From assembly GCF_011758745.1 (NCBI RefSeq), contig NZ_JAANOV010000001.1:4340001-4404000 (forward strand): DNA of 64,000 nt. Direction: 5' to 3'. The notes beneath the pieces were generated by a model. The model was given only the letters and a program-made list of their open reading frames with translations, had not been told where the DNA came from and searched no databases. The first letter of the stretch is position 1; each line of letters opens with the position of its first letter. This document shows, in pieces, positions 12,853-32,031 of this stretch. This DNA is from Amycolatopsis granulosa (GTDB lineage: Bacteria > Actinomycetota > Actinomycetes > Mycobacteriales > Pseudonocardiaceae). A program made the position numbers and the translations under genes.

Positions 12853-13317
12853 TCAGGCCAGCGCCTCGGAGATCCAGTCGGTCACCGGCAGGTCCCGGTC
12901 GAGGCATTCGGTGGACAGCCGGACCGTCCAGCGCAGCGCTTGCAGCGTGAGGCTGTTCACCTCCGCGCGGTTCGCGCTCGCCAGTGCGATCTCCACCTGT
13001 TCGGCCGCGGCCTCGGTGTTGCCGTGCACCTCGGCCAGCAGGGTGCGGACCGCCGTGCGCACCGGCGGGTCGGCCTGGTCGATCGAGACCTCCGCGCCCG
13101 TCTCGTCGAACACCTGCACCTTCACCGGCGCGCTGCCGCCATCACCGAGGGTGGTCACCATCGTGCTGCACTCCTCGAACAGCAGCAGCATCAGCTCCCG
13201 CGTCTCGTCGTGGCTCGACGGGGCCACCTCGTCGAGCGCGTCGTCGTCACGGCCGAGCTGCATCGCGACGAGGGCGCGCTGCGCTCGCGAGATCAGCTGC
13301 TGCCGGTCGGAGGTCAC
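12853..13317 (-). CDS. Hypothetical helical protein
   Basis: 154 residues from the GTG chosen here; a TTG four codons upstream would give 158. Mostly alpha-helical, acidic, no signal peptide or membrane segment; begins VTSDRQQLISRAQRALVAM. I do not recognise a domain. No clear ribosome site precedes either start. It converges with metX and is upstream-adjacent to the TetR gene on the same strand, about 50 nt beyond that gene's stop, so it may be co-transcribed with it. Confidence 0.65.
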   Translation of the reverse strand: MTSDRQQLISRAQRALVAMQLGRDDDALDEVAPSSHDETRELMLLLFEECSTMVTTLGDGGSAPVKVQVFDETGAEVSIDQADPPVRTAVRTLLAEVHGNTEAAAEQVEIALASANRAEVNSLTLQALRWTVRLSTECLDRDLPVTDWISEALA

Positions 13318-13378
13318 GGGGTCTATCAAAGCCGGGGAAAGCCGTTCAAGGTAGTGGGAAAAACGAGTGACGTGCCGA

Positions 13379-13969
13379 TCACGCGGCGGCCTGCAGCGCG
13401 CCGAGCGCGAGGCGCCGCAGGAGGACGGCCAGATCCTCGTCGTCGAGATGGCGGTTGTACGGCGTGGAGTTGATCAGCCCGAACACGGCGTGTGCCGCCG
13501 AACGAGCCTGGCGTTCCCCCACTCCGGGGACGGCGTCGCGGATCACCTTCACCCACACCTCGACGTAACGCCGCTGCAGCGCGCGCACCTGCTTGCGGTC
13601 GGCATCGGTGAGGTTGGCGAGGTTGCGCTCCTGGACCGTGATCAGCGACGGGTGGGTGAGCGCGAAGTCGACGTGGAACTCGACCAGCTCGGTGAGCGCC
13701 TGCCCGGGGTCGGAGGTCTGCTCGACGCGGGCGGTGCCGCCGTCGAGGAGGTAGTGGCTGATCGAGTTCAGCATCTCCCCGAGCATCGCGTCCTTGCTGC
13801 GGAAGTGCCGGTACAGCGCCGGGCCGGAGATGCCGACCGCCGCGCCGATGTCGTCGATGCCGACGCCGTGGAAGCCGTGCCGGGCGAACAGCTCGGCCGC
13901 CGCGCTCAGGATCTCCTCACGGCGCGTGGCCTTCTCACCGGTGACCAGCGGGGTGGGACTCGTCGACAC
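13379..13969 (-). CDS. TetR-family repressor, AccR-like
   Basis: 196 residues. N-terminal helix-turn-helix at about 15-65 (REEILSAAAELFARHGF, then ISGPALYRHFRSKDAML) and a C-terminal ligand domain. GTG start at 13969 with AGGA upstream; the nearby ATG is out of frame. A strong palindrome, GTTAGCGAGCGCTAAC, sits 22 bp upstream, and two related copies lie in front of the acyl-CoA carboxylase operon 1.9 kb away, so this protein very likely represses both itself and that operon. In Streptomyces a TetR protein (AccR) is known to control short-chain acyl-CoA carboxylase genes through a GTTAA-N6-TTAAC type site. Confidence 0.88.
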   Translation of the reverse strand: MSTSPTPLVTGEKATRREEILSAAAELFARHGFHGVGIDDIGAAVGISGPALYRHFRSKDAMLGEMLNSISHYLLDGGTARVEQTSDPGQALTELVEFHVDFALTHPSLITVQERNLANLTDADRKQVRALQRRYVEVWVKVIRDAVPGVGERQARSAAHAVFGLINSTPYNRHLDDEDLAVLLRRLALGALQAAA

Positions 13970-13990
13970 GTGACCATCCTATCGAGTCAG

Positions 13991-14006
13991 GTTAGCGAGC
14001 GCTAAC
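13991..14006. promoter_or_regulatory. TetR operator, copy 1 (autoregulation)
   Basis: GTTAGCG-AG-CGCTAAC, perfect 7-bp arms, just upstream of the TetR gene. Fits GTTAR-N6-YTAAC like the two copies at 15815 and 15843. Confidence 0.8.
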
Positions 14007-14120
14007 GTCGGCTCGTTGTCACCTGTTGGTAGACGGAATGCCTCCCAACGGGGGTCCCTTCCGGGCACCGCACCTGGTAATCGTTCAGTAGTGCTTCGCT
14101 CACGGAAGGTGGTCACCGTT

Positions 14121-14912
14121 GTGCTGAGAACGCTTGCCGTCGCCGCCGTCGCGGCCCTCACCGCGATCGGCCTGAACTGGGGGGTTGCCGGTGCGGACAC
14201 CCTCGACTACGTCGCCCTCGGTGACTCCTACTCCTCCGGGGTGGGTGCCGGGAGCTACCTCGACTCCTCCAGTTGCAAACGCAGCTCGAACGCCTACCCG
14301 GAGCTCTACGCCAGGCAGACGTCGGCTGCGCTCGACTTCCGGGCGTGCTCCGGTGCCAAGACCTCCGACGTGCTGTCCAAGCAGGTCGGCGCACTGTCCG
14401 CCGGCACCGACCTGGTGACGATCAGCGTCGGCGGCAACGACGCCGGCTTCGCGAGCGTGATGCAGGACTGCATCCTCGGCGGGGACGCGGGCTGCAAGAC
14501 GGCGATCGACAACGCGAAGGCGTTCGTGACCGGGACCCTGCCGGGGCTGCTGGACAAGACCTACCGGGAGATCCGGTCGCGCGCCCCGGAGGCGAAGGTG
14601 GTCGTGCTGGGGTACCCGCACTTCTACAAGATCGGCGGCTCGTGCTCGGTCGGGTTGTCCGACACGTCGCGCGGTTACATCGACAGCGGGGCGGACGCGC
14701 TGGACTCGGTCATCCAGAAGGAGGCGTCGGAGGCGGGTTTCGCCTTCGCGGACGTGCGCCCGGCCTTCGCCGGGCACGAGATCTGTTCCGGCGCGTCCTG
14801 GCTGCACAGCCTGACCTACCCGGTCGACGAGTCCTACCACCCGACGGCGACCGGCCAGGCGCGGGGCTACTACCCGTCACTGGTGGCCGCGGTGCGGGAG
14901 CTCCGGGTGTGA
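14121..14912 (+). CDS. Secreted SGNH/GDSL-family lipase or esterase
   Basis: 263 residues with a signal peptide (hydrophobic LAVAAVAALTAIGLNWGVAGA, probable cleavage after VAGA). Catalytic blocks: GDSYSSG (nucleophile Ser, block I), SVGGNDAGF (block III) and YHPTATGQ (block V His). Several paired cysteines are consistent with an exported, disulfide-stabilised enzyme like Streptomyces SGNH lipases and esterases. The GTG at 14121 is chosen for its signal peptide with GGAAGG 11 nt upstream; in-frame GTGs at 14109 and 14091 are alternatives. Acts outside the cell on ester or phospholipid substrates; exact specificity unknown. Confidence 0.87.
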   Translation: MLRTLAVAAVAALTAIGLNWGVAGADTLDYVALGDSYSSGVGAGSYLDSSSCKRSSNAYPELYARQTSAALDFRACSGAKTSDVLSKQVGALSAGTDLVTISVGGNDAGFASVMQDCILGGDAGCKTAIDNAKAFVTGTLPGLLDKTYREIRSRAPEAKVVVLGYPHFYKIGGSCSVGLSDTSRGYIDSGADALDSVIQKEASEAGFAFADVRPAFAGHEICSGASWLHSLTYPVDESYHPTATGQARGYYPSLVAAVRELRV

Positions 14913-14981
14913 CCCCGCGGCCGGGCGGCCGGCCCGCGCCGCTTCGGTAACGCGTGGCGCGGGCACGGCGACGATCATCGT

Positions 14982-15770
14982 GTGCAGGCGGAGACGAGCT
15001 GGCTCCCCCCGTGGAGCACGGACCCGGCCACGTTCGCCGCCTGGGGCCAGTGGGCCGGCGCGCTGGGCAGCATGGCGGCGGTGATCGTCGCACTGGCGCT
15101 CGCGGCGGTGGATGGACGTCGGCGGCGACGCGAACTGGCGGACCGGCAAGCGGCACAGGCCCGCACCGTGACCTGCACCGTCACGCGCAGCATCGGCCAG
15201 GACGGCGACCGGGACGAGTTGTCCGTCGTCGTCCACAACCACGGGCAGCTGCCGGTCACCGATGTCTACCTCCGGGACGTCCGGATGCACTTCGGGGACA
15301 CCACGCTGCAGGATTGGGATTTCGCGGCGCCTCGTCAGCGCGACGAGGGGCGGGCATACCCGTTGGACACGGTGATCGGTCCACAGGATCACTCCAGCTC
15401 CCCCCGATTGATCTTCCGGGACGAGCCGGCGGAGGGTGCACCCCCCGGCCGAGGCGAGGCGACCACGCGGTTCGCCTTCCTCGATGCGAGTGGACTCTGC
15501 TGGGAACGCATCAACAACGGCCCGCCCAGGCGGATCTACACAAGGCAGGAGAAGAACCGGATCGAGAGGCGGGCGTTCCGGCGGCTCATCGTCAACGTCA
15601 CGGTCGTGTGCCTGCTGATCGGCATCGGTGTCGGCACACTCACGGCGACGCTGGACATCAACTTCGTCAGTTCTCTGCTGCTCGATCTCACCGTGTGGGC
15701 CGGTGCCGCGTACGTCATCGTCCGCAAGGTCGACGGCAAGCCGCTGCTCCCCGTCCGCCCGGGGAAGTGA
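14982..15770 (+). CDS. Hypothetical membrane protein
   Basis: 262 residues. One hydrophobic segment near residues 27-45 (MAAVIVALALAAV), a soluble middle of about 150 residues that may be a beta-sandwich (VVHNHGQLPVTDVYLRDV resembles receptor-like beta strands), and two more membrane segments near the C-terminus (VTVVCLLIGIGVG and the following hydrophobic stretch). GTG start with no strong ribosome site. No family recognised. Confidence 0.7.
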   Translation: MQAETSWLPPWSTDPATFAAWGQWAGALGSMAAVIVALALAAVDGRRRRRELADRQAAQARTVTCTVTRSIGQDGDRDELSVVVHNHGQLPVTDVYLRDVRMHFGDTTLQDWDFAAPRQRDEGRAYPLDTVIGPQDHSSSPRLIFRDEPAEGAPPGRGEATTRFAFLDASGLCWERINNGPPRRIYTRQEKNRIERRAFRRLIVNVTVVCLLIGIGVGTLTATLDINFVSSLLLDLTVWAGAAYVIVRKVDGKPLLPVRPGK

Positions 15771-15814
15771 GCGGGCGGCCGCGAGAAGCAGTGCCGCCGC
15801 GCTGGACAGCGCAC

Positions 15815-15830
15815 GTTAGCCGTGGTTAAC
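15815..15830. promoter_or_regulatory. TetR operator, copy 2
   Basis: GTTAGCCGTGGTTAAC, 56-71 bp before the accD start. Same GTTAR-N6-YTAAC pattern as the site in front of the TetR gene. Confidence 0.75.
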
Positions 15831-15842
15831 ATCGACCCGTGC

Positions 15843-15858
15843 GTTAACGCCTGCTAAC
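15843..15858. promoter_or_regulatory. TetR operator, copy 3
   Basis: GTTAACGCCTGCTAAC, 28-43 bp before the accD start. Centre-to-centre distance to copy 2 is 28 bp. Confidence 0.75.
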
Positions 15859-15885
15859 CATGTTCGGCGTCGGATGAGGAGGGTC

Positions 15886-17499
15886 ATGGACTTCCCGGTG
15901 CTCGGCACCTCCGCGGACCCGCGAAGCGAGCAATACGCCCGGAACGCGACCGCTCACGCGGAGCTCACCGAGGATCTGCGCAAGCGTCTGGCCGCCGCCC
16001 GCACCGGCGGCCCCGAGAAGGCGCGTGCCCGGCATGTGGAACGCGGCAAGCTCCTGCCCCGCGACCGCGTCGACGCCCTGCTCGACCCGGGCTCGCCGTT
16101 CCTCGAACTCTCGCCGCTGGCCGCGAACGGCCTCTACGACGACGAGGCTCCCGCGGCGGGCATCATCACCGGGATCGGCCGCGTCTCCGGGCGTGAGTGC
16201 GTCGTCGTCGCCAACGACGCGACCGTCAAGGGTGGCACGTACTACCCGATGACGGTCAAGAAGCACCTGCGAGCGCAGGAAGTCGCCCTGCACAACAACC
16301 TGCCGTGCATCTACCTGGTCGACTCCGGTGGCGCCTTCCTGCCGAGGCAGGACGACGTGTTCCCCGACCGCGAGCACTTCGGCCGCATCTTCTACAACCA
16401 GGCGACCATGTCCGCGCGCGGTATCCCGCAGATCGCGGCCGTCCTGGGCTCGTGCACGGCCGGTGGCGCGTACGTGCCGGCGATGAGCGACGAGGCGGTC
16501 ATCGTCCGCAACCAGGGCACCATCTTCCTCGGCGGCCCGCCGCTGGTGAAGGCCGCGACCGGGGAGGTGGTCACCGCCGAAGAACTCGGCGGCGGCGACG
16601 TCCACGCCCGTCAGTCCGGCGTCACCGACCACCTCGCCACCGACGACGCGCACGCCCTGTCCATCGTGCGCAACATCGTCGCCACCCTCGGCCCGCGCAG
16701 CCCGCGCCCGTGGGAAACCCGCCAGGTCGAGGCTCCCGTCGTCGACCCGGAGCAGCTCTACGGCGTCGTGCCCACCGACCCCCGCACCCCCTACGACGTG
16801 CGCGAGGTCATCGCGCGGATCGTCGACGGCAGCCGCTTCGCGGAGTTCAAGAAGGAGTACGGCGCCACCCTCGTCACCGGTTTCGCGCACATCCACGGCC
16901 ACCCGGTCGGCATCATCGCCAACAACGGCGTGCTGTTCGCCGAGTCCGCGATGAAGGGCGCGCACTTCATCGAGCTGTGCGACCAGCGGTCGATCCCGCT
17001 GGTCTTCCTGCAGAACATCAGCGGCTTCATGGTCGGCAGGGCCTACGAGGCCGGCGGCATCGCCAAGCACGGCGCCAAGATGGTCACCGCGGTCGCCTGC
17101 GCCCGGGTGCCCAAGTTCACCGTCATCATCGGCGGCTCGTTCGGCGCCGGCAACTACTCGATGTGCGGGCGGGCGTACTCGCCCCGCTTCCTGTGGATGT
17201 GGCCCAACGCGCGCATCTCCGTGATGGGCGGTGAGCAGGCCGCCTCGGTGCTGGCGACCGTCCGCCGCGACTCGATCGAGAGCCGTGGCGGCGAGTGGCC
17301 CGCCGACGAGGAGGAGGCGTTCAAGGAACCCATCCGCCGCCAGTACGAGGAGCAGGGCAGCCCCTACTACTCGACGGCGCGGCTGTGGGACGACGGCGTG
17401 ATCGACCCGGCGGACACCCGCATGGTGCTCGGCCTCGCGCTGTCGGTGGCGGCGAACGCGCCGCTGGAACCGGTCAGCTACGGCGTCTTCCGGATGTGA
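15886..17499 (+). CDS. Acyl-CoA carboxylase beta subunit (methylcrotonyl-CoA carboxylase type)
   Basis: 537 residues, carboxyltransferase subunit. The stretches [40 protein letters not shown] and [12 protein letters not shown] match methylcrotonyl-CoA carboxylase beta chains (MccB/LiuB/AccD1) more closely than propionyl-CoA carboxylase. It transfers carboxyl from biotin to 3-methylcrotonyl-CoA in leucine breakdown. The ATG at 15886 has GAGGAGGG directly upstream; a second ATG four codons earlier lacks it. First gene of a tight three-gene operon preceded by two TetR operators. Confidence 0.92.
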
Positions 17500-17504
17500 G
17501 GGGC

Positions 17505-19466
17505 ATGTTCGACACCGTCCTCATCGCCAACCGCGGCGAGATCGCGGTTCGCGTCATCAGCACCCTGCGGCGCCTGGGTATCCGCTCGGTCGCGGTCTAC
17601 AGCGACGCCGACGCGGACGCGCGGCACGTGCACGAGGCCGACACCGCGATCCGCATCGGACCCGCTGAGGCCACCCACAGCTACCTGTCCATCCCGGACA
17701 TCGTCCGGGCCGCCGTGGACTCCGGCGCGCAGGCCGTCCACCCCGGATACGGCTTCCTCGCCGAGAACGCCGAGTTCGCCGCCGCGTGCGAGAAGGCCGG
17801 GCTCACGTTCATCGGGCCGCCGCCGGGCGCGATCGACGCCATGGGCGACAAGATCCGCGCCAAGGCCACGGTCTCCGCGGCCGGTGTCCCCGTCGTGCCC
17901 GGTCTGTCCGATGTGGACGACTTCGCGAAGGCGGCCGACGAGGTCGGCTACCCGTTGCTGCTCAAGCCGTCCGCGGGCGGTGGCGGCAAGGGCATGCGGC
18001 TGGTACACGAGCCCGGTGAACTCGCCGCCGCGGTCGAGTCCGCGCAGCGCGAGGCCCGCGCCGCGTTCGGCGACGACCGCCTGCTGCTGGAACGGTTCGT
18101 CACCACGCCGCGGCACATCGAGATCCAGGTGCTCGCCGACGCCCACGGCACGGTCCTGCACCTCGGTGAGCGCGAGTGCAGCCTGCAGCGCCGGCACCAG
18201 AAAATCATCGAGGAGGCGCCGTCGGTGCTGCTCGACGAGCGGACCCGGGCGCGGATGGGCGCCGCCGCCGTGGAAGCGGCCCGCTCGGTCGGGTACGTCG
18301 GCGCCGGCACCGTCGAGTTCATCGTCTCGGCGCGCAAGCCGGACGAGTTCTTCTTCATGGAGATGAACACGCGGCTGCAGGTCGAGCACCCGGTGACGGA
18401 GCTGGTGACCGGGCTGGACCTGGTCGAGTGGCAGGTGCGCGTCGCCGCGGGCGAGCCGCTCACGCTGACCCAGGACGACATCCGGCTCGACGGTCACGCC
18501 ATCGAGGCCCGCGTCTACGCCGAGGACCCGGCCCGCGGGTTCGTGCCGACCGGCGGCACCGTGCTGGCGCTCGACGAGCCGCGCGGCCAGGGTGTCCGCG
18601 TGGACTCCTCGCTCGCGGAGGGGTCGGTCGTCGGGTCGAACTACGACCCGATGCTCGCCAAGGTGATCGCGTGGGGCCCGGACCGGGCCGCCGCGCTGCA
18701 CCGGCTCGACCGCGCCCTGGCGGGCACGGCCGTGCTGGGCGTGCCGACCAACGTGACCTTCCTGCGTGCGCTGCTGGGCGACCCCGACGTGCGGGCCGGG
18801 AACCTGGACACCGGGCTCGTCGAGCGCCGGCTCGACGAGCTGGTCGGCTCGGCGGTGCCCGCGGAGTTCTTCGTCGCGGCCGCGATGGACCGGCTGCTCG
18901 GTCTGGTGCCGGCCGGCACCTCCGATCCGTGGGCAGTGCCCAGCGGGTGGCGGCTGGGCGGCCCGGGCGGGGTCCGGTTCCGGTTGCGTGCCGGGGACAC
19001 CGAGGCGCTGGTCACGGTCGAGGGCTCGCCGGACGACGCCCGGGTCACTGTGGACGGTGGCGAGCCGGTGCCGGTGTCCGCCCGGCGCACGGGCAACCGG
19101 CTCGAGGTGCACTACGACGGCGAGTTCCGGCGGTACCTGCGCGCCGACGCACCGCGGGACCGGGTGTGGCTCGGCCGGGACGGGCACGGCGTCGTCGTCG
19201 GGGAACGGCCCAACCTGCTCGCCACGCACGGCGAGGCGAACGAGGCGGGACCGGTGACGAGCCCGATGCCGGGCACGGTCCTGGTGGTCAAGGTCGCGCA
19301 GGGCGACGTGGTGCGCGCGGGCGCGCCGCTGCTGGTCGTCGAGGCGATGAAGATGGAACACACGCTGGTCGCCCCGGTCGACGGCGTGGTCGACGAACTC
19401 CGCGTCCAGGTGGGCCAGCAGGTGGCCCTCGACGAGACGCTCGCGGTGGTCAAGGAGCAGAAATGA
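17505..19466 (+). CDS. Acyl-CoA carboxylase biotin-carboxylase/BCCP alpha subunit
   Basis: 653 residues. The biotin carboxylase domain begins [15 protein letters not shown], has the glycine-rich ATP loop [11 protein letters not shown], and the catalytic lid/active-site segments [15 protein letters not shown] and [14 protein letters not shown]. The C-terminal biotin-carrier domain carries the biotinylated lysine in EAMKMEH. Partner of the beta subunit 5 nt upstream; together they form the methylcrotonyl-CoA carboxylase-type complex. The stop overlaps the next gene's ATG (ATGA). Confidence 0.95.
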
Positions 19467-20617
19467 TCGACTTCCGGCTCGGCGAAGAGTACGAGGCGCT
19501 GCGCAAGACCGTGCAGGACTTCGCGCAGTCCGAGGTGGCCCCCGTGATCGGCGGCTTCTACGAGCGGGAGGAGTTCCCGTACGAGATCGTCCGCGGCATG
19601 GCGCGGATGGGCCTGTTCGGACTGCCGTTCCCGGAGGAGTACGGCGGGATGGGCGGCGACTACTTCGCGCTGTGCCTCGCGCTGGAGGAACTGGCCCGGG
19701 TCGACTCGTCGGTGGCGATCACCCTGGAGGCGGGCGTGTCGCTGGGCGCGATGCCGCTCTACCGGTTCGGCTCCGCCGAGCAGAAGGCGAAGTGGCTGCC
19801 CGCGCTGTGCGCCGGTGACGCGCTGGGCGCGTTCGGCCTGACCGAGCCCGGTGGCGGTTCCGACGCCGGCGCGACCCGCACGAGCGCGAAGCTGGACGGC
19901 GGCGAGTGGGTGATCAACGGCAGCAAGTCGTTCATCACCAACTCCGGCACCGACATCACCCAGCTGGTCACCGTCACCGCGGTGACCGGCGAGAAACCCG
20001 GTGGTGGCAAGGAGATCTCGGCGATCATCGTGCCGTCCGGCACGCCCGGGTTCACGGTGGCGCCGAAGTACTCGAAGGTCGGCTGGAACGCCTCGGACAC
20101 CCACGAGCTGTCCTTCACCGACTGCCGGGTGCCCGCGGAGAACCTGCTCGGCGAACGCGGCCGCGGGTACGCCCAGTTCCTGTCCATCCTGGACGAGGGC
20201 CGGGTCGCGATCGCGGCGCTGAGCGTGGGGCTCGCGCAGGGTTGTGTCGACGAGTGCCTGCGTTACGCGGGGGAGCGGGAGGCGTTCGGCCACCGCATCG
20301 GCGAGTACCAGGCGATCCAGTTCAAGATCGCCGACATGGAGGTCCGCGCCCACACCGCCCGGCTGGCCTACTACGCGGCCGCGTCGAAGATGCTGCGCGG
20401 TGAGCCGTTCAAGAAGGAGGCCTCGATCGCCAAGCTGGTCGCCTCGAACGCGGCGATGGACAACGCGCGGGACGCGACGCAGATCTTCGGCGGTTACGGC
20501 TTCATGAACGAGTTCCCCGTCGGCCGGTTCTACCGGGACGCGAAGATCCTCGAGGTGGGGGAGGGCACCAGCGAGGTGCAGCGCATGCTGATCGCCCGCG
20601 AGCTGGGTCTTCGCTGA
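19463..20617 (+). CDS. Acyl-CoA dehydrogenase (isovaleryl-CoA dehydrogenase type)
   Basis: 384 residues, FAD enzyme. Standard landmarks: [15 protein letters not shown] (FAD/substrate contact), [35 protein letters not shown] and a catalytic glutamate in [12 protein letters not shown]. In this operon it would make the methylcrotonyl-CoA-type substrate of the carboxylase from isovaleryl-CoA. Start ATG in the ATGA overlap with AAGGAG upstream. No hydroxymethylglutaryl-CoA lyase or enoyl-CoA hydratase follows, although both are commonly present in leucine operons. Confidence 0.92.
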
Positions 20618-30728: not shown

Positions 30729-31904
30729 CTAGCCCAGGTCCAGCACCGCGGCCATCAGGGCCCGCAGCTCGCCCGCCAGACAGGGGCGCTGGTTGACCCG
30801 GCGGGTGCGGGACAGGTCGTTGGCGATGGTCAGCGCGGCGTGCACGGTGATTTTCGCTTCGCGGGGGTTCAGCGACGGCTGCGCCGCGCCCAGCAGGCCG
30901 ACCCACTGGGCGACGTAGTCCCGCTGGATGCGCCGCAGCTCGGCGCTCTCCTCCTCGGCGTAGGTGACCGCGTCGGCGGAGAACGACACCGCCAGCTCGG
31001 CCGAACCGGTCAGCACCCGCACGTACGAGTCGATCAGCCCGCGCAGCGCTTCCGTCTCGTCGGCGCTGCCCAGCCGCACCCGCTCGGCGTCCAGCAGCAG
31101 CCGGTCGGCCGCACGGCGCGCGATCGCCCCCAGCAGGGCCGCCTTGCTGGAGAAGTGCCGGTACACGCTCGGTCCCGCGATGCCCGCCGCCGCCCCGATG
31201 TCCTCCATGCTCACCGCGTGGAAACCCGCGCGCTGGAACAGCTCCGCGGCCGCGGACAGGATCTGCTCGCGCCGCGAGACCACACCGACCCCCGGTGACG
31301 CGGCCGTGGGCGGATCCAGCACGTCCGGCAGCCGCACGTCCAGCACGCGGCGCGCCAGTGCCGCCAGCAGTTCGGCGAACCGTTTGCGCGCCACCGACGT
31401 CCGGTGCACCGAAACGCTGCCGAACACGCTCATCGCCGCCCAGCACAGCAGCTCCGCGTCCGCCGGTTCCAGGTCGTCGCGCACGTTCATGAGCTCCTTG
31501 GCCCACGCCGCCAGCAACGCCGCCGACCGCCGCCCGATCTCGCGCTGGTCCGCCGGCGCCAGGTGGCGGCCCTCCCACCGCCACAGCGCCGCCACGTCCC
31601 GCCGCTCCACCGACGCCTCCGCGATGCCCCGCAGCAGCCGGTCCACCTGCGCGCCGTCCGGCCGGCGCAGGCTGGACAGGGCGGCCGCGGTCGCCTCCTC
31701 CATCTCCCGCACGCCGCCGAGCAGCACATGCGCGAGGATCGCCTGCTTGTCCGCGAAGTGCCGGTACACGGCGGGCCCGGTGATGCCGGCGGCCGCCGCG
31801 ATGTCGTTGATGCCCACGCCGTGGTAGCCGCGGGCGCGGAACAGCTCGGCCGCGAGGCCGGCGAGCTGGTCCTTGCGGTCGGGACGGCGGCGTGTACTCG
31901 ACAT
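30729..31904 (-). CDS. TetR-family regulator with two complete TetR modules
   Basis: 391 residues, twice the normal length. Each half has its own helix-turn-helix: ITGPAVYRHFADKQAIL at about 40-58 and IAGPSVYRHFSSKAALL at about 242-260, each followed by a ligand-type helical domain. Such fused double-TetR proteins are known in actinobacteria, often near fatty-acid degradation genes. It is divergent from fadA-fadB (33 kb) with 127 bp between starts, so repression of that beta-oxidation operon is the natural guess. ATG start at the upstream end. The C-terminal tail sequence recurs twice near 28.3 and 28.9 kb. Confidence 0.9.
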   Translation of the reverse strand: MSSTRRRPDRKDQLAGLAAELFRARGYHGVGINDIAAAAGITGPAVYRHFADKQAILAHVLLGGVREMEEATAAALSSLRRPDGAQVDRLLRGIAEASVERRDVAALWRWEGRHLAPADQREIGRRSAALLAAWAKELMNVRDDLEPADAELLCWAAMSVFGSVSVHRTSVARKRFAELLAALARRVLDVRLPDVLDPPTAASPGVGVVSRREQILSAAAELFQRAGFHAVSMEDIGAAAGIAGPSVYRHFSSKAALLGAIARRAADRLLLDAERVRLGSADETEALRGLIDSYVRVLTGSAELAVSFSADAVTYAEEESAELRRIQRDYVAQWVGLLGAAQPSLNPREAKITVHAALTIANDLSRTRRVNQRPCLAGELRALMAAVLDLG

Positions 31905-31945: not shown

Positions 31946-31976
31946 TTGACACCAGGGGATTCAGTAGGACTATGTT
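31946..31976 (+). promoter_or_regulatory. fadA-fadB promoter
   Basis: -35 TTGACA (31946-31951) and -10 TATGTT (31971-31976), spacing 19, upstream of the GTG of fadA. A TTAG-tggcca-TTAG repeat lies at the probable start of transcription. Confidence 0.5.
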
Positions 31977-32031
31977 AGTGGCCATTAGCGTCAGACCCAG
32001 ACGGATGCAGTAAGCAGGAAGGACCGTCGGT

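Follow-up and report, generated by a model that had tools for sequence, protein, structure and literature searches.

A BkaR/AccR-type repressor predicted to control leucine catabolism in Amycolatopsis granulosa through a promoter-embedded operator and an unlinked hmgL operator

Regulator gene, carboxylase operon and operator-like sites

A 64,000 nt stretch of the Amycolatopsis granulosa genome (designated here as the window) carries a gene encoding a TetR-family repressor and, 1.9 kb away and separated from it by two genes, a three-gene operon that looks like one for 3-methylcrotonyl-CoA (coenzyme A) carboxylase (MCC) and an acyl-CoA dehydrogenase of leucine catabolism. Sites matching GTTAR-N6-YTAAC, the motif searched in this study, lie upstream of both. 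The features concerned are:

13379..13969, minus strand: TetR-family repressor, predicted orthologue of BkaR/AccR/SACE_7040 (NF050111 score; fold match to 6yj2 BkaR)
13991..14006, no strand: predicted operator O1, GTTAGCGAGCGCTAAC; -35/spacer side of the tetR promoter
15815..15830, no strand: predicted operator O2, GTTAGCCGTGGTTAAC; occupies the spacer between -35 and -10 of the accD promoter
15843..15858, no strand: predicted operator O3, GTTAACGCCTGCTAAC; within the segment predicted to be transcribed first
15886..17499, plus strand: accD-type beta subunit of 3-methylcrotonyl-CoA carboxylase (PF01039; best solved match AccD1 4q0g)
17505..19466, plus strand: biotin carboxylase, alpha subunit with MCC-type BT domain (PF21139 BT_MCC_alpha)
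19463..20617, plus strand: acyl-CoA dehydrogenase (PF00441/02770/02771), overlapping the end of the alpha-subunit gene

The original prediction, made from the sequence alone, had placed one such site before the TetR gene and two before accD, and both the number and the placement were confirmed. O1 lies 22 bp from the start of the TetR gene, O2 and O3 are located just upstream of accD, and these three are the only exact matches in the window, compared with 0 in 100 dinucleotide shuffles. The call of an acyl-CoA carboxylase operon was right as to the genes and is refined in detail: the subunit pair is of the 3-methylcrotonyl-CoA carboxylase type, and accD probably starts at 15886 rather than 15874, with AGGAGGG, read by eye, just upstream. 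AccD1 (4q0g) was the first structure match of the beta subunit, with MCC beta subunits among the next ones. Mycobacterial AccD1-AccA1 is described as a 3-methylcrotonyl-CoA carboxylase of leucine breakdown (PMC4347857).

In the whole genome (5,623,989 bases), six exact places were identified, compared with two for a reversed control pattern. One is located at tetR, two at accD, one at hmgL, and the remaining two (L002 and L003) look like iron boxes. The latter have the form GTTAGG-N4-CCTAAC and, judged by eye from translations, neighbour a locus for siderophore transport and a gene possibly involved in haem utilisation. The consensus of the DtxR/IdeR iron box is GTTAGG...CCTAAC, with G6/C11, which L002 and L003 resemble. 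Matches of equal quality near unrelated genes, occurring as often as chance predicts, had been named beforehand as grounds for abandoning the prediction; the scan favoured the prediction, the two iron-box look-alikes being the exceptions. When up to one mismatch was allowed, 25 places were found compared with 37 in the reversed control. With the signal lost, only exact matches are informative, and one-mismatch genome scans were dropped as a means of finding the regulon. Within the window, the same relaxation added a single site (GTTAGTGGCCATTAGC, 31974-31989), with another TetR-like reading frame (about 30753-31280; 37% identity to the window regulator) some 0.7 kb away.

Identity of the regulator

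The deduced TetR protein scored 273.9 bits against NCBIfam NF050111, the SACE_7040 equivalog (cut-off 250). Eight of nine relatives tested, from Streptomyces, Rhodococcus, Nocardia, Saccharopolyspora and the family of the window, also passed the cut-off, and the ninth, an incomplete stretch from Pseudonocardia, reached 244.9 bits. The genes of the tested orthologues stand beside or near accD. The nearest named relatives of the window regulator were found in Amycolatopsis (95% in A. tucumanensis). Its predicted model, with a mean predicted local distance difference test score (pLDDT) of 91, aligned best with BkaR, Rv2506 (6yj2; Z 24.6, root-mean-square deviation 1.8, 182 aligned, 47% identity), followed by 4g12 (Fad35R; Z 23.4) and, as the next protein, 3ccy (Z 20.7).

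The likeness to Streptomyces AccR that had been proposed for the motif and the TetR gene is supported by the NF050111 score, the BkaR fold and the published AccR site, GTTAA-N6-TTAAC, whose targets include accD1A1-hmgL-fadE4 and others (PMC10933834). Sequence and modelled structure indicate that the protein belongs to the known repressor group of BkaR (mycobacteria), AccR (Streptomyces) and SACE_7040, and the 16-bp GTTAR-N6-YTAAC operators that characterize this group are present before its own gene and before accD-accA-acyl-CoA dehydrogenase. All three window sites carry C6 and G11 and do not match the mycobacterial BkaR core GTTA(N)T(N4)A(N)TAAC; the regulator is therefore classified as a BkaR orthologue, not as a regulator with the exact specificity of BkaR. 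None of O1-O3 fits the TGACG-type PccD operator motif printed in PMC10933834. The core of the system is a further member of a known system; what is added is an operator at the unlinked hmgL and the fusion of operator and promoter described below.

Conservation of the operators within the family

Conservation was assessed in 99 loci from 98 genomes of the family, including that of the window, each with the regulator and accD. At the regulator or accD, at least one exact site was present in 95 of the 99 loci and at least two in 92. The 107 loci scanned comprise 334,394 bp and contain 238 exact sites, compared with a mean of 0.0 over 20 rounds of dinucleotide shuffling. The four loci without an exact site (L124, L125, L128 and L134) all belong to genus g42 and carry two one-mismatch sites each; here the operators have drifted to GTGAAC half-sites, and the regulator is 54-59% identical. 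Genome G071 contains two copies of the regulator-accD pair (L132 and L133), each with at least one exact operator. Conversely, exact sites were found in none of five accD regions from regulator-less genomes, one of which has a one-mismatch site, and accD of G004, a genome with its regulator match on a separate contig, had no site.

Predicted fusion of the accD-distal operator to the accD promoter

The predicted promoter elements are:

15803..15808, plus strand: -35 hexamer TGGACA of the accD promoter (promoter scan; T[AG]GAC conservation)
15827..15832, plus strand: -10 hexamer TAACAT of the accD promoter, its first four bases being the end of O2
13976..13981, minus strand: predicted -10 TAGGAT of tetR (by eye), with the GTG start 7 nt downstream

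A promoter scan of positions 13300-16000 returned TGGACA-18-TAACAT as the sole promoter-like match in 2.7 kb (mean of 0.1 in shuffles), and the accD transcription start is predicted at ~15839. For a comparison of O2 with O3, the 84 of the 99 family loci in which two exact sites lie 20-32 bp from each other were taken, representing 83 unique O2 sites. On the accD strand, O2 is followed by NT in 83/83 of these (AT in 75), and the T at +2 completes a TANNNT -10 hexamer (TAACAT or similar) with the last four bases of the operator. T[AG]GAC precedes O2 by 11-12 nt in 76/83, corresponding to a spacer of 17-18 nt. The mirror position to the left of O2 is A in only 25/83, while T at +2 follows O3 in 30/84 and O1 in 21/45 sites (the O1 comparison covered 45 of the 53 loci with a GDSL-type gene between regulator and operon). 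Being one-sided and not shared by O3, this T points to a promoter rather than a wider operator; the same counts led us to reject a -10 formed by O3 or O1 in the manner of O2. Among the 15 family loci outside the comparison, ten have a distal site (exact, with one mismatch or in a closer pair), which is followed by NT in all ten cases.

Similar arrangements were observed in other families. All 36 distal operators in Streptomycetaceae carry both the T and T[AG]GAC, compared with a T at 4/36 proximal operators, and six loci of the Nocardia/Rhodococcus type yielded five exact sites, four with the T and three with TGGAC. The sequence comparison thus indicates that the accD-distal operator O2 is fused to the predicted promoter, its right half-site beginning the -10 (TAAC+AT). 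The most common O2-O3 spacing was 28 bp (42/92 pairs, one-mismatch sites included); a fixed helical phasing was rejected, as spacings of 16-32 bp occur.

Beyond O1, TANNNT starting 6-14 nt past the site was found in 43/45 sites, compared with 0/45 in a control stretch. With its -10 lying past O1, the tetR promoter would be covered by O1 on its -35 side, and the tetR transcript is probably leaderless.

A predicted unlinked operator at hmgL

A fourth predicted operator, GTTAGTGAGCGTTAAC, is located 2.85 Mb from the window sites and stops 8 nt short of the hmgL GTG. The hmgL product passes NCBIfam NF004283 (hydroxymethylglutaryl-CoA lyase), an enzyme of a later step in leucine breakdown. Within the genus, hmgL was found in 18/19 genomes at the cut used, with an exact site at its start in 11/18, although in two of these eleven (G121 and G123) it is positioned at the extrapolated hmgL start or inside it. 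The remaining nine form a clade with the window (Shimodaira-Hasegawa-like approximate likelihood-ratio test, SH-aLRT, 97) in which the exact site is kept in all nine members, with TGGAC upstream in 8/9 and T at +2 in 9/9. In 8/9 close congeners the start codon of hmgL follows the -10 at 7 nt, an arrangement consistent with a leaderless transcript. None of ten second hmgL copies in the genus has a site.

In the family sample, 6/55 hmgL loci carry the site, including G001 (genus g2) and G010 (genus g11), both with the full composite of promoter and operator, whereas it was found in 0/7 regulator-less genomes. On a tree of 61 scored genomes the trait requires at least four changes, and well-supported branches force two of these. 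In Streptomycetaceae, hmgL is situated within the accD operon in most loci read.

As a separate observation, GTTAGCAACGGTTAAC or a near form precedes a gene for a Fis-family (HTH_8, DhaR-like) regulator in several congeners (L198:7372, L199:7254, L200:2649, L202, L203, L208 and L209), three of these sites being ~5 kb from hmgL. The exact genome scan revealed no such site in the genome of the window.

Distribution of the composite promoter-operator

The arrangement seen at O2 was expressed as the composite pattern TRGAC-N6/7-GTTAR-N6-YTAAC-NT. In the family, it produced 101 matches in 90/120 genomes, compared with one for the reversed control. Judged by eye against gene positions, 91 matches precede accD and six precede hmgL; the other four are located in the tetR/GDSL interval (one, G032), before a glycerol-facilitator gene (two) and before a PepSY-like gene (one). 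Genomes with the regulator orthologue matched in 89/110 cases, compared with 0/9 without it (G011 excluded). At the class level, 78/246 genomes matched (reversed control 1), comprising 77/129 with an orthologue of at least 200 bits and 1/117 without, as counted by eye and at a cut chosen after the fact. The genomes compared are related, so that such co-occurrence tests overstate independence.

Of 79 class-level matches, 30 were examined, of which 19 precede accD, eight scoA, and one each hmgL, an acyl-CoA ligase-like gene and a bacterioferritin-like gene (accD and hmgL called by alignment, the rest by eye, and two scoA products checked by family). The single match in an orthologue-less genome (L340) is the iron-box-like site before the bacterioferritin-like gene, as read by eye. 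The scoA gene (3-oxoacid CoA-transferase A) is preceded by the composite in eight class-level genomes (L341-L347, L352, L379 and L380), in two of which (G218 and G248) the site is far from the regulator gene. Overall, the composite promoter-operator co-occurs with the regulator throughout the class and mostly stands before accD, hmgL or scoA.

Several candidate targets were not retained. The matches before the glycerol-facilitator gene (G065 and G093) look like those of another regulator or chance; at these loci (L369 and L370, genus g27), the composite stands between an aquaglyceroporin-like gene, which it precedes, and what by eye resembles a glycerol-3-phosphate-dehydrogenase gene. The match before the PepSY-like gene of G019 (L371, by eye) was judged likewise. 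In two genomes of genus g38, an exact site precedes the gene for the small subunit of methylmalonyl-CoA mutase (L214:2057 and L216:2035); this enzyme was not accepted as a target, as the g38 sites lack the composite promoter.

Operator core and recognition helix

The two core positions that distinguish the window sites from mycobacterial BkaR sites vary between lineages. Loci of family f2 and Nocardiaceae have T6/A11 in 22/24 exact sites and I or V in the recognition helix. Family loci with SGPALYRHF have 206 sites, with C6/G11 in 109, a mixed core (C/A or T/G) in 84 and T6/A11 in only six, while Streptomycetaceae (SGPGLYRHF) have T6/A11 in 0/73 sites. The correlation is confounded with lineage and is broken by genus g17, which combines SGPGVYRHF with C6/G11 in 6/6 sites, and by g42, which combines SGPAIYRHF with drifted, C6/G11-like sites. 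The recognition helix is therefore not accepted as the sole determinant of the core bases.

Comparison with known systems

BkaR (Rv2506/MSMEG_4718) binds such sites and represses itself and accD1-accA1-fadE19 (PMC3920632). It resembles the window regulator as an orthologous TetR repressor with paired palindromic operators and autoregulation, the last of these predicted for the window, and it likewise controls accD1-accA1-acyl-CoA dehydrogenase together with a distant target, fadA4 in M. smegmatis. In that species, however, the regulator gene is divergent from and adjacent to the operon, whereas two genes intervene in the window; the mycobacterial core is T6/A11 rather than C6/G11; and the other mycobacterial targets are fadA4 or scoA, compared with hmgL and its own operator in the window genome (PMC3920632). 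A conserved putative -35 was marked by Balhana et al. between bkaR and its neighbour (PMC3920632).

AccR of Streptomyces avermitilis is likewise a TetR repressor with a GTTAA-N6-TTAAC-type operator and a carboxylase operon as target, but hmgL lies inside the Streptomyces operon and is unlinked, with its own operator, in the window genome (PMC10933834). Short-chain acyl-CoAs, namely methylcrotonyl-, propionyl- and acetyl-CoA, have been reported as AccR ligands (PMC8546615). The exact whole-genome scan detected no sites at other acyl-CoA genes, such as echA8, echA9 and fadE2 of the AccR regulon.

SACE_7040 of Saccharopolyspora erythraea, after which the NCBIfam equivalog containing the window protein is named, was called a morphogenesis repressor and is described in development, with no link to leucine in the part of the text covered (PMC3825060). 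SACE_7038-7039 are described as acetyl-CoA carboxylase (ACC) and/or propionyl-CoA carboxylase (PCC) genes (PMC8546615), and the gene numbers suggest that SACE_7040 adjoins this carboxylase operon. PccD of Sac. erythraea, called a BkaR homologue (PMC11596240), is also a TetR repressor of an acyl-CoA carboxylase operon, but its reported site, (T/A)TGACG(G/C)TG(T/C)TG(T/A), is unlike the window operators (PMC10933834). Neither a composite promoter-operator nor an Amycolatopsis hmgL operator was described in the literature searched, although the original AccR and PccD papers may contain either.

A model for control of leucine catabolism and its alternatives

We consider it very probable (roughly 0.87) that a BkaR/AccR/SACE_7040-type repressor controls leucine catabolism in this organism via O1, O2, O3 and the hmgL operator. 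The sites, the genes, their conservation and their co-occurrence are observed here, and binding, repression and ligand would follow those of BkaR and AccR by analogy. Without inducer, repressor dimers would occupy O1 at their own promoter, resulting in autorepression, and O2 and O3 at the carboxylase operon. O2 fills the predicted accD spacer and supplies the first four bases of the -10, so that repressor and RNA polymerase would compete for the same base pairs and exclude each other, while O3, just past the predicted transcription start, would reinforce the block. The hmgL operator, of the same build and 2.85 Mb away, would place a late step of the pathway under the same control. During leucine degradation, the inducer that releases the repressor is probably an acyl-CoA from the pathway.

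A number of observations weigh against this model. No distal operator was found, even with one mismatch, in 5/99 family loci (L047, L053, L067, L083 and L087), the g42 loci have only one-mismatch, GTGAAC-type sites, and 21/110 orthologue-bearing family genomes lack an exact composite (by eye). G011, a genome 74% complete in which only a weak paralogue was found, nevertheless has two sites. The hmgL site is limited to 11/18 congeners and 6/55 family loci. Finally, GTTAGTGAGCGCTAAC-type sites, which in M. tuberculosis lie between Rv0575c and Rv0576, were not bound by the BkaR of that species (PMC3920632); GTTAGTGAGCGCTAAC is one base from O1 and yet unbound, which implies that operator choice differs between lineages.

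The sites might instead belong to another regulator recognizing GTTA..TAAC, such as an iron regulator of the DtxR/IdeR kind, with the TetR gene a bystander. L002 and L003, two of the six exact genome sites, are GTTAGG-N4-CCTAAC and placed, judged by eye, as iron boxes would be, and the class-level match L340 before a bacterioferritin-like gene has the same look (by eye). This explanation is nonetheless highly improbable, given that O1-O3 all have C6/G11 in place of G6/C11, that the composite follows the TetR orthologue (77/129 versus 1/117) and that exact sites are missing before accD in 5/5 regulator-less genomes. Within the repressor model, the T and A after O2 could be part of an extended operator rather than a -10, the repressor then acting beside the promoter and not inside it; the BkaR motif was indeed described as 24 bp with a 16-bp core (PMC3920632), such that bases outside the core may matter. 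This would not explain why the flank is one-sided (T at +2 in 83/83, mirror A at -2 in 25/83) and not shared by O3 or O1, why it goes together with T[AG]GAC 11-12 nt before O2 in 76/83, or why the hmgL start codon follows the -10 by 7 nt in 8/9 close congeners, and we regard it as unlikely. Similarly improbable is that only O1-O3 are functional and the hmgL site is a chance match. The presence of this site in part of the genus only, and its rarity outside, would agree with chance, but it is exact and kept in all nine members of a supported clade (SH-aLRT 97), with TGGAC upstream in 8/9 and T at +2 in 9/9; moreover, the full composite recurs at hmgL in g2 and g11, the pathway fits, and hmgL of Streptomycetaceae sits in the accD operon.

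With the repressor model, the original motif observation becomes a checked prediction of a regulon in which one repressor and four operators would govern steps of one pathway. The model connects leucine catabolism with an NCBI family that takes its name from a developmental regulator (SACE_7040); such a connection could account for the reported effect on mycelium formation. A pathway gene would be able to join the regulon through operon membership, as in Streptomycetaceae, or through its own operator, as in the genus of the window, and the composite represents a specific pattern for locating regulon promoters class-wide. Leucine breakdown supplies acetyl-CoA and related precursors in antibiotic producers, and the regulon targets may therefore be of practical use.

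The chances appear even that the composite is, beyond this, an inherited regulon unit across actinobacteria by which lineages captured successive leucine steps. A gene acquiring the composite would at once be transcribed and leucine-controlled. The captures would comprise hmgL in the clade of the window and again in g2/g11, and scoA in family f17 and one f2 genome, with Streptomycetaceae keeping hmgL in the operon. The core would have shifted from T6/A11 (f2, Nocardiaceae) to C6/G11 (the family of the window, Streptomycetaceae), partly with a change from I/V to L in the helix SGP(A/G)xYRHF, a core-helix shift that genera g17 and g42 contradict.

Genes between the regulator and the operon

Two open reading frames (ORFs) separate the regulator gene from the operon:

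14016..14912, plus strand: GDSL-type lipase ORF (PF13472), with its true start probably near 14120
14982..15770, plus strand: second ORF, no family match

The prediction had described these as two unrelated genes; two genes do lie there, but the arrangement is no isolated oddity, as a GDSL homologue is found between regulator and operon in 53/99 family loci. Three further loci have gaps of >500 bp without a GDSL match (L083, 840 bp; L121 and L122, 3.1 kb), and the count of 53 may therefore be a slight underestimate. The second ORF had no Pfam or NCBIfam match at E 0.001 and, among the loci searched, was present only in the window and in one near-identical genome (G133). The GDSL-between trait requires at least nine changes on the regulator tree, and three changes were forced by well-supported branches in an earlier tree holding four faulty rows.

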